Below, in pieces: positions 37,586 through 51,104 of a DNA stretch of 64,000 bases; position 1 is the stretch's first letter; the number at the start of each line of letters is the position of its first letter. The notes below the pieces were generated by a model that did not search any database, had not been told where the DNA came from, and saw nothing but the letters and a program-made list of their open reading frames with translations. Source of the stretch: Thermincola carboxydiphila (lineage in GTDB: Bacteria; Bacillota; Thermincolia; Thermincolales; UBA2595); NCBI GenBank assembly GCA_016841725.1, contig JAENYP010000008.1:62001-126000 (forward strand), written 5' to 3'. The position numbers and the translations under genes were made by a program.

Positions 37586-37685
37586 ACAGCCACCTCCATC
37601 AGCAGAAACACTTACGGTCCCTAAAATATAATATGGACAGGTTAACAGAAATAGACCTGAAAAAAAATGGGGCCGGCTAATATGA

Positions 37686-37749
37686 GCAGGGGTAGAAATG
37701 TTCCTCCGGCGGGCTACATCTCCACCTTCCGAAACACATCTACCCCTGC
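37686..37749 (-). repeat. Palindromic element family 1, minimal copy
   Basis: On the minus strand a 64-base element begins GCAGGGGTAGATG and ends CATTTCTACCCCTGC, which pair as the outer stem. It then has GGAA, the second stem GGTGG / CCGCC, and a bare loop AGATGTAGC. The other copies (50139-50253, 50317-50493) share the outer stem, the GGAA loop, GTAGC and the second stem, but have large insertions in the loop. It sits in the gap between the SPOR gene and the secreted protein gene; the rest of that gap shows nothing clear. Confidence 0.85.
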
Positions 37750-37818
37750 CCTATAACATTTTTATAGTTCAAAATTATTGACTTTGCCAGCAATCTGGGG
37801 CCGACACATAACCAAGGG

Positions 37819-45986: not shown

Positions 45987-46266
45987 AAAAAATAAAAAAA
46001 CTCCTTTATCCTGTAAGGACGAAAGAAGTTTCCGCGGTACCACCTTAGTTCCGGACACCTTTTGGTTCCGGCTCTCCTGATTTGCTGTAACGGGCTGCCC
46101 GGCGCCGCCTACTAAAAGCTTTCGGCGGCACAACTCCGGAGCGACTTCGAATCCTTTAACCACCAGGGAGCCTTTCAGCCAGGGGCCACCCCTCTCTGTG
46201 AGGTCAGGTAATTCTACTACTCTCCTTCAACGCATATAAAAATAATATCTAATTTAATATGTCTGA
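45987..46266 (-). ncRNA. T-box riboswitch, valine specific
   Basis: The conserved T-box sequence AAGGTGGTACCGCGG lies at 46032-46046 on the minus strand, and a terminator hairpin (arms near AACTTCTTTCGTCC and GGATAAAGGAGTT, then T-rich) ends at about 45987. In the stem I region a GTC codon at 46143-46145 follows GAA, matching a valine specifier. The leader is therefore expected to sense uncharged tRNA-Val and antiterminate valS. Confidence 0.93.
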
Positions 46267-48828: not shown

Positions 48829-49827
48829 CTATATTTTATGTCCTATGATAAGGAACAGGAACAGGCTGTAAAACACCCCTCCTGATAAAAGAGTATATGC
48901 CCTCAGGTAACCCTTAAGGGACAGGAACACATATATCATCGCCGCAGATGCCAGGGCGACCAGGGCACAGGTGAAAGCCGCAGTATTCAGTACCCATGGT
49001 GTCATCACAATACCTATAGCCGGAATAATGGAACTCTGAAACACCATAGCCCCTGTTATATTCCCCAAGGCCAGGGTATCTTTTCCCCTGCTGACCCAGA
49101 TTATGCTGTTGAATTTTTCGGGCAGTTCTGTAGCTATAGGAGTGATCACTACCGAAAGAATAAAAGGAGAGATGTCCATTACAGCTGCCATTTTTTCCAT
49201 TGAGTGGACAAATAATTCTGCTCCTCCTATAATTCCGCCAACCGCTGTTAGTACCTGTAACAGGATAAAGCGGAACCGCGGCACAACCGATGTCCGATTC
49301 AGCAGCAAAGGCTTCAGTTCTTCTCCTGCCACGCATTCCCCACCCGTAATGGTCTTATAGGCATATACGCCATATGCGGCTACCAGCCCGGCTGCCAGAA
49401 TCAGTTTATATGAATGATTACTTAACAAGGCTGCCAGTATTGCTGTGGAATAAATGATCAGAAAGAATTTCAGGTCCCGCTGCATCACTCTGTTGTCAAT
49501 CATCATGGTGGCCCTTCTCCTGCCAAGAAGGGCAAGAATCAGAGCCGCAGTTCCGGTAACAAAAAGGGCCAGGGTACCCAGCATAAAAGGGGCCCCAAGA
49601 ATAGCGCCGACACCTATTTCTGTCGATGCCTGACTGGCTCCCAGTCCGATAGCGATCACCGGAACCAGTGTTTCAGGCAGCGCTGTGCCTACTGCTGCCA
49701 GTATACTGCCTACAGCCCCTTCTGAAAGCTTCATCCGGCGCCCCAGCCATTCTATCCCGTTGGTAAAAAGCTCGGCACTCACCAGGATTATTCCCAGGCC
49801 CATTAATAGCGTGCCGATATTGGCCAT
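48829..49827 (-). CDS. Sodium/calcium exchanger family antiporter
   Basis: The 332-residue protein belongs to the calcium:cation antiporter (CaCA) family with two inverted alpha repeats. The first has GSILAAVGTALPETLVP (about residues 40-56), the second ATELPEKFNSIIW (about 235-247). About ten hydrophobic segments are present. It could exchange Na+ or H+ for Ca2+, but the ion is not settled by sequence. It starts after the palindromic repeats at 49911-50493 and precedes the TIGR04086 gene. Confidence 0.9.
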   Translation of the reverse strand: MANIGTLLMGLGIILVSAELFTNGIEWLGRRMKLSEGAVGSILAAVGTALPETLVPVIAIGLGASQASTEIGVGAILGAPFMLGTLALFVTGTAALILALLGRRRATMMIDNRVMQRDLKFFLIIYSTAILAALLSNHSYKLILAAGLVAAYGVYAYKTITGGECVAGEELKPLLLNRTSVVPRFRFILLQVLTAVGGIIGGAELFVHSMEKMAAVMDISPFILSVVITPIATELPEKFNSIIWVSRGKDTLALGNITGAMVFQSSIIPAIGIVMTPWVLNTAAFTCALVALASAAMIYVFLSLKGYLRAYTLLSGGVFYSLFLFLIIGHKI

Positions 49828-49910
49828 CTCACCACCTCTTTCCGCATATATTAAAATATGCAGAAGATGGCGGTTTAATGCCCTGAAAAAAAGGCCTGCT
49901 TTTTTTCCAA

Positions 49911-50084
49911 TAGTAGACTCCGGAAATGACCGTTAATATCATATGGTGACGCGTTGCACCGATTTTCCGCACTGCCGCCTGCGAGTCTAAGCTGCCACCC
50001 CTCCGGCAGCAAGACTCGTAACGGCGGCAGTGCCAGGAAAATCTTGTACAACACCTCACCATATGCCACGGTCATTTCCGGAGC
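49911..50084. repeat. Palindromic element family 2, expanded copy
   Basis: This 174-base copy shares with 16165-16272 the left end TAGTA, the outer arms CGGAAATGACCG / CGGTCATTTCCG, the core GCACCGATTTTCCGCACTG and the right arm CACCATAT / CCACGG. Its apex is enlarged by about 70 bases forming nested stems: GATTTTCC / GGAAAATC, CACTGCCGCC / GGCGGCAGTG, and GAGTCT with GCTGCC / GGCAGC inside. It lies next to two family 1 copies in the gap before engB. Confidence 0.85.
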
Positions 50085-50138
50085 CTATACATTTTTAAAT
50101 TAGCTGCATGTTTTCGAGCCTTAAAGATATTATTAAGA

Positions 50139-50253
50139 TAGGGGTAGATGTATTCCGGAAGGCGGTGTCTGTCGTCAACCGGTCCAAAGCCGCTTTCAGC
50201 GGGTTTGGGTAACCGGTTGAGACGTAGCCCGCCAGAGGAATACATCTACCCCT
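50139..50253 (+). repeat. Palindromic element family 1, medium copy
   Basis: The outer stem GGGGTAGATGTATTCC pairs with GGAATACATCTACCCC. Inside are GGAA, the stem GGCGG / CCGCC, GTAGC, and an apical insert of about 60 bases with nested stems AACCGGT / ACCGGTT and CCGC / GCGG. The layout matches 37686-37749 and 50317-50493. The whole 49828-50519 gap holds no coding gene; it is filled by these elements and short AT-rich spacers. Confidence 0.88.
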
Positions 50254-50316
50254 AAAAATTTATAGGCAATATGAACTCGCACGCTTAAAGAGAGCTGTTC
50301 TGCTGTACTATAAAAC

Positions 50317-50493
50317 AAGAGAGTGGCAGATATGTTCCGGAAGGATGAGTCTGACGTCCGCTTGTCGGCCATGGCATCTCTTAGCGCTTTAGCGCTTAGA
50401 GATGGCGGTACCCTTGGGGTAAATCCGCAAATGCGGGAGCCGGTAACAAGCGGAGTTGTAGCCATCCTAGAGGAATGTATCTGCCACTCTCTT
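50317..50493 (+). repeat. Palindromic element family 1, large branched copy
   Basis: The outer stem AGAGAGTGGCAGAT pairs with ATCTGCCACTCTCT with G-T pairs further in. It has GGAA, the stem GGATG / CATCC (a compensatory change from the other copies), and GTAGC. The apex, about 110 bases, forms a stem CCGCTTGT / ACAAGCGG enclosing three hairpins: TAGCGC / GCGCTTA, TACCC / GGGTA, and CCGCA / TGCGG. It ends 26 bases from the engB stop. Confidence 0.88.
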
Positions 50494-50519
50494 AATTTAA
50501 GGCAAAACGTCTCTCTTTT

Positions 50520-51104
50520 TCAGATCATTTTTTCACCGATTAATTTCCACAACTCATCCTTGCCCTGGCCGGTTTCTGCAGAAAAGGCAATTACCGGCGT
50601 GTCGGGGAACGGGACAAGGGTTTCCTTGATCAAACGGGTGTGCTTCGGCCAATTTCCCCGTGCTATTTTATCTGCCTTTGTGGTTACCAGGATTGTGGGA
50701 ATGCCGAAATGCTTCAGCCATTCGTGCATCTGGACATCCTCCCTGCTGGGGGCATGCCTGATATCAATCAATTGAATAACTGCCCTAAGGTTGTCCCTGT
50801 TGAGGAGATATTCCTCAATCATTTTACCCCACGCAGCCTTTTCCACCCTGGAGACTTTGGCAAACCCATAACCCGGCAGGTCCACAAAATAAAAACTGTC
50901 ATTTATGTGATAGAAATTCAGGAGCCTGGTCTTACCGGGACTTCCGCTGGTCCTGGCCAGCGCCTTCCGTTTAACCAGCCTGTTAATCAGGGATGATTTA
51001 CCCACATTTGACCGTCCGGCAAAGGCTATTTCGGGCTGTCCGCCCTCCGGGTACTGTTTAGGCCCAACAGCGCTGATTACATATTCGGCAGAAACTATGC
51101 GCAT
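50520..51104 (-). CDS. engB: Ribosome biogenesis GTPase EngB (YsxC)
   Basis: EngB is an essential GTPase in late 50S assembly. The 194-residue protein has G1 [12 protein letters not shown] (about residues 30-41), G3 [10 protein letters not shown] (about 76-85) and the G4 TKADK (about 145). It starts 1 base after lon, the usual Firmicute pairing, so the two are cotranscribed. A palindromic element lies just downstream and may act on its 3' end. Confidence 0.96.

Follow-up and report, generated by a model that had tools for sequence, protein, structure and literature searches.

Three large palindromes lie one after another in the intergenic gap between an antiporter gene and engB, within the 64,000 nucleotides of Thermincola DNA analysed here (the window), and they raise the question of whether such a cluster arose by insertion or is an array with a function of its own. 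The first-pass annotation had offered both readings: a hot spot for insertion, or an array with a shared function, for example a transcription buffer after engB. Our comparison of related genomes bears out the former and speaks against the latter: the cluster is real and well above chance, is best explained as a hot spot that arose through hairpin targeting, and looks like a natural insertion hot spot, not a purpose-built array. Palindromic repeats are common in bacteria and their movement is rarely caught; filled and empty sites in sister genomes make it testable how the repeats described here move, and what moves them.

Results

Three palindromes between an antiporter gene and engB

G000, the genome to which the window belongs (3.88 Mb, 40 contigs), is assigned to the genus Thermincola, judging from its EngB protein, which shares 90% identity with EngB of a metagenome assembly of Thermincola ferriacetica (G001) and 96% with EngB of a sister species (G002), both of the same genus. 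The gap (49828–50519, 692 bases) lies 3′ of engB and 5′ of the Na/Ca-exchanger gene (Table 1), and this gene order is kept in G001–G004, G006, G009 and L112. One palindrome of family 2 and two of family 1, covering about 470 bases of non-coding DNA, had been described there, and coordinates, inverted repeats and folds all agree with that description: the three together span ~467 bases, with inverted repeats at 49914–49933/50068–50087, 50139–50156/50237–50254 and 50311–50347/50463–50499. Each element folds as one long hairpin (−111.5, −78.3 and −103.1 kcal/mol from first to third), with z-scores against dinucleotide shuffles of −17.8, −12.0 and −11.2, and no shuffle equalled these folds; the entire stretch folded as single-stranded DNA gives a z-score of −19.3. 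The open reading frames that overlap the palindromes (66–89 aa on the minus strand, and parts of 83- and 150-aa frames on the plus strand) are mechanical six-frame products.

The second and third elements belong to one family (79% identity over 42 bases) and the first to a different one. In the middle element ~80 nt separate the TTCC/GGAA arms, and the AT-rich flanks resemble those of other copies; the third has a core of 132 nt that contains an additional inner hairpin; and the first lacks ~130 bp of the centre of the usual family 2 form of about 300–326 bp. No palindrome matched Rfam at gathering score, the window yielding only a T-box and tRNA; the T-box leader (RF00230, 116.6 bits) lies at 46012–46239 on the minus strand. 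A simple scan of 49800–50560, which counted loops of 3–8 only and can be escaped by very long hairpins, found no canonical intrinsic terminator (GC-rich stem-loop plus T run). From its position, it is plausible that the third hairpin ends engB transcription.

Table 1. Palindromes of the gap and the genes on either side, in window coordinates
Feature	Coordinates	Strand	Basis and remarks
Na/Ca-exchanger-type antiporter gene	48829..49827	-	Pfam Na_Ca_ex; downstream of gap
Family 2 palindrome, short form	49914..50087	+	Inverted repeat, fold, family copies
Family 1 palindrome, standard core	50139..50254	+	Inverted repeat, fold; 53 own-genome matches
Family 1 palindrome, longer core	50317..50493	+	Arms AGAGAGTGGCAGAT/ATCTGCCACTCTCT; orthologs in G002, G001
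engB, ribosome-biogenesis GTPase	50520..51104	-	Pfam 50S-ribosome-binding GTPase; orthologs; upstream of gap in transcription direction

Two dispersed families

Both families recur elsewhere in G000 in copy numbers that exclude chance. Searches of the genome with each element, with matches merged by position, gave about 69 places for family 1 and 41 for family 2, fragments counted. Family 1 is also present in G001–G004 and G006–G008, which belong to the same genus or family, and gives weak matches in G009, of the same order; it is absent from G005 and from all of the 31 other sampled genomes of the phylum; a keyword search of the open-access literature found no report of either family in Thermincola. 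The G002 ortholog of the family 2 copy in the gap is likewise of the short form, and at two further loci (L034 and L036) the element is short in G000 and long in G002, which indicates that loss of the centre happened repeatedly.

Neighbour pairs of a family 1 and a family 2 element number 6, against about 1.5–1.8 expected under random placement if intergenic DNA makes up 12–15% of the genome (P 0.004–0.011; P 0.06 if it makes up only 8%). Clustering is above expectation only modestly, and solitary copies are the majority. The densest cluster holds four elements (family 1, 2, 1, 1; L064, L047, L088 and L152) within 800 bp at C25:499780-500579, including one intact family 1 unit with duplicated hairpins; further clusters in G000 are at C14:201251-201765, C24:44658-45102 and C3:17317-17793.

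Insertion at terminator-like hairpins

For 11 loci of family 1 and 7 of family 2, the two flanks were joined and searched against G002 and G001, and the matches were aligned. Empty sites were found in G002 for the family 1 loci L145, L148, L149 and L155, and in G001 for the family 1 loci L148, L149, L150 and others as well as for the family 2 loci L053, L036, L045 and L050. The empty sites show that both families are dispersed insertions and were mobile.

The empty family 1 sites of G002 carry a single terminator-like hairpin, whereas at the filled sites of G000 the element has that hairpin to its left and to its right. L155 is an example, with one hairpin in G002 (GGATTAGGGCAGCCTTAGGCTGCCCTAATCTG) and two in G000, the element lying between them. 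Intact family 1 units, which end in AGRCTGYTGACAAAG...TTTGTCAATAAGCT, are flanked at 13 loci (nine in the window genome and four in G002) by direct repeats of 16–28 aligned bases, nearly all of them hairpins, that abut the ends of the element with an offset of 0–3 bases. These repeats score 14–20, whereas the 99th percentile is 11 when left flanks are paired with the right flanks of other entries (a control that contains some duplicate loci, so that its maximum of 22 is not meaningful). The length of the repeat varies with the hairpin because the repeat is the hairpin. The alignments show intact family 1 units to occupy terminator-like hairpins, with the hairpin directly repeated on both sides; for family 2, insertion was seen, but no consistent target duplication.

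In the gap itself no empty site was found, G001 retaining a remnant. Because both family 1 copies there lack their outermost ends and the flanking hairpin repeats, we infer their mode of insertion from the better preserved copies. The proposal of an insertion hot spot is supported by the empty sites, the terminator hairpins targeted by intact family 1 units and the recurrence of clusters.

Elsewhere in the window (37675–37797, minus strand), a shorter unit of family 1, whose outer end is AGATTGCTGGCAAAGTC, sits in a terminator-like hairpin between two ORFs; the sequences to its two sides, GTCGGCCCC and GCCGGCCCCATTTTTTTT, look like a duplicated hairpin half. At another locus (L154), a plain hairpin in G001 (GGCCGGTATGTTCCGGCC) was considered as the target of a family 1 core before insertion and set aside, since loss of the core by deletion between CCGG repeats explains it equally well, and probably better.

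A preference for hairpins is documented for IS1272, a member of the IS1182 family that finds its targets, hairpins in DNA and frequently those of terminators, by their structure rather than their sequence (PMC4923244, PMC5678879), and family 1 is like it in targeting hairpins. An origin of our elements as MITEs of a transposon of the IS1182 type, for instance IS1272, is nevertheless most improbable. IS1272 leaves its target unduplicated and removes a part of the stem-loop (PMC4923244, PMC5678879), the opposite of what is seen here, where the whole hairpin is duplicated. Moreover, IS1272 has a transposase and family 1 has none: no gene of the corresponding type, DDE_Tnp_1_6 (PF13751), was found in G000–G003, and the IS1182 copies of G004 and G005 show no matching ends.

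Niches and stem evolution of the two families

The genes on either side, called with a simple longest-ORF rule, are convergent for family 1 in 19 cases, tandem in 33 and divergent in 3; for family 2 the numbers are 0, 23 and 5, respectively. In tandem cases, family 2 starts at a median of 8 bp past the upstream stop codon and mostly runs in the same direction (18:5, p 0.01), and family 1 starts at a median of 55 bp past the stop and mostly runs in the opposite direction (22:9, p 0.03). Family 2 is thereby shown to lie mostly directly after stop codons in operons, and the counts of context and orientation together indicate different niches: terminators for family 1 and operon junctions for family 2. 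The window gap houses both families.

The stems of the two families have also evolved differently. In family 1, 37 copies with a core of standard length, from the window genome and its relatives, have outer arms that diverge greatly in sequence while complementarity is kept. Counted on a tree, 68 changes replace one Watson-Crick pair by another, and 28 lead to A-C or other unpaired states. Exchanges of Watson-Crick pairs with G-T states number 38, and those with A-C states 8. Among 17 full-length family 2 copies, 21 changes were between Watson-Crick pairs and 54 to A-C or other unpaired states, and the 20 changes from Watson-Crick to G-T do not exceed the 27 to A-C. The fold of family 1 is thus maintained, and its maintenance seems to be visible on one strand; the arms of family 2, by these counts, are decaying, as inert insertions would. 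The strand preference of family 1 is what a folded RNA or one DNA strand would give, but it is only suggestive, because the raw excess (129 G-T against 9 A-C cells) stems mainly from five pairs that are often G-T and because copies exchange sequence.

These data bear on the possibility that the host keeps the hairpins as strong terminators or 3′-end protectors of the mRNAs of engB and other genes, with selection maintaining the pairing. Family 1 does sit 3′ of genes, its stems co-vary, and the arms of the third element of the gap are common to three Thermincola species. However, the strand on which G-T pairing is kept is the element's own forward strand, which is mostly antisense to the upstream gene, and this speaks against a role in the mRNA of that gene; many of the loci are without the element in related species; the arms of family 2 decay; and the simple scan found no canonical terminator in the gap. 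We consider such a selected function unlikely. A transcription buffer or other function shared by the array is likewise disfavoured, as the two families differ in niche, orientation bias and stem evolution and as the T. ferriacetica assembly retains only a remnant of ~50 nt of the third element.

The gap in related genomes

In G002 the gap contains the full series of three, in unchanged order, and assembly of the cluster therefore did not take place recently in the G000 lineage alone; in G001 it does not. The finding that the first-pass annotation named as an argument against recent insertion, relatives sharing the same series, is thus made in part. The G002 family 2 copy lacks its left end. 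The middle element of G002 has a different 3′ half with an extra inner palindrome, CTGGGGGTCCCCCCGATCCG...CGGATTGGGGGGACC, which is related to inserts in two copies of the window genome (L149 and L152); this third palindromic insert thus lies within family 1 cores at L149, L152 and the G002 gap (L133), as a palindrome inside a palindrome. The third element of G002 has kept its arms, but the core between them is reversed and of a different subtype. In the G001 gap only AGAAAGTGGCAGACATATTCCTTCATCCTTCCGGAACATGTCTGCCACTCTTT is present, that is, the third element without most of its core; we read this remnant from the raw sequences, as a MAFFT alignment of the three gaps misplaces it. The same gap contains different long hairpins in other genera. 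Taken together, the comparison indicates that hairpins have long been present in this gap, that the cluster predates the split of G000 and G002, and that the interiors have kept changing.

An alternative reading of these changes is that the elements are old, with little transposition, and that complementarity and interior changes both come from arm-to-arm copying (template switching) and from exchange between copies. The changed subtype and orientation of the third core between unchanged arms, the replaced 3′ half of the middle element, the family 2 centres deleted in G000 and present in G002, and a palindrome that reaches into unique flank at L045 all fit this reading. Copying, however, creates no insertions with flanking hairpin repeats, and it should be strand-symmetric, unlike the 38 G-T against 8 A-C changes of family 1. 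As the main account it is quite unlikely; it may well act on top of transposition.

Two further observations concern individual loci. The antiporter-engB gap of G006, which belongs to a different genus, contains an unrelated long nested hairpin with the ends GGGGCTGTCCCATAA...TTATGGGACAGCCCC (L135). At the family 2 copy L045 (G000:C37:83903-84228), the end of the upstream gene reappears inverted in the right flank (ATCAGTCAAT / AATGACTGAT). The arms differ mirror-wise from those of L222 in G002, as if the palindrome had been extended into its flank by fold-back copying.

Discussion

We consider it likely that the palindromes are small, non-autonomous, MITE-like elements of Thermincolaceae, terminator-seeking in the case of family 1, that accumulate because their insertion creates new hairpin targets. 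Some trans-acting enzyme would recognize the folded element and an extruded target hairpin and would cut at both feet of that hairpin, which an extruded cruciform would expose; repair or filling-in would then duplicate the hairpin. Each such event would leave two copies of the target hairpin and one large new hairpin, and hence more targets in the same gap, which could account for clusters of elements side by side as well as for nested palindromes. The engB gap would have become a cluster since a terminator hairpin was there and since insertions add hairpin targets; family 2, whose usual niche differs, may have arrived independently; and any effect on engB transcription would be secondary. With hairpin targeting, the grouping of palindromes in gaps between genes would have a simple explanation.

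Our search for the mobilizing gene in G000–G003 found no IS1182-type transposase and no gene between matching ends: 20 regions with the pattern of ends AGRCTGYTGACAAAGTC were inspected, and these contain only units of ~250–330 bp, plain terminators and chance matches. An autonomous partner may have diverged or been lost. Y1 transposase and reverse-transcriptase genes were rejected as candidates, as they are present in G000, G002 and G003 and absent from G001, which has family 1; a look at the Y1 loci found no family 1 or 2 motif there. More tentatively, family 1 might move via a folded single-stranded intermediate (RNA or one DNA strand) that some enzyme inserts where terminator hairpins are extruded; hairpin size, and not a fixed stagger, would then set how long the duplication is. 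This is rather doubtful; if true, it would be a new mode of transposition and would explain both the covariation on one strand and the nested palindromes.

The kind of element is known, and what is unusual is its target and its mode of duplication. Like REP elements, families 1 and 2 are extragenic palindromes with possible single-strand folding, but they are larger than the 20–40 bp of REPs (PMC3733652); they also differ from the REP/RAYT system in that Y1_Tnp genes do not adjoin them and in that G001 has family 1 and no Y1_Tnp. As in MITEs, they are short, non-coding, present in high copy number and bounded by terminal inverted repeats, and intact family 1 units have a target site duplication as well. 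They resemble ERIC-type and other bacterial MITEs as non-autonomous intergenic palindromes of ~100–300 bp, some of which lie inside operons like family 2 (PMC10969869, PMC2229807); whole-hairpin target repeats and strand-biased stem covariation are not known to be reported for these. Whole-hairpin duplication and one-strand covariation set the present MITE-like repeats apart.

BOX, RUP and SPRITE of pneumococci are small folded repeats that are clustered, insert into one another and prefer the 3′ regions of genes (PMC3049150). Our families share with them small size, dispersal, tight folding, a preference for the 3′ side of genes, occurrence in clusters and insertion into one another, and differ in sequence and host. 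RUP has a proposed IS partner, and none was found for families 1 and 2. SPRITE itself resembles a terminator; family 1, by contrast, goes into terminators and has copies of them on its flanks.
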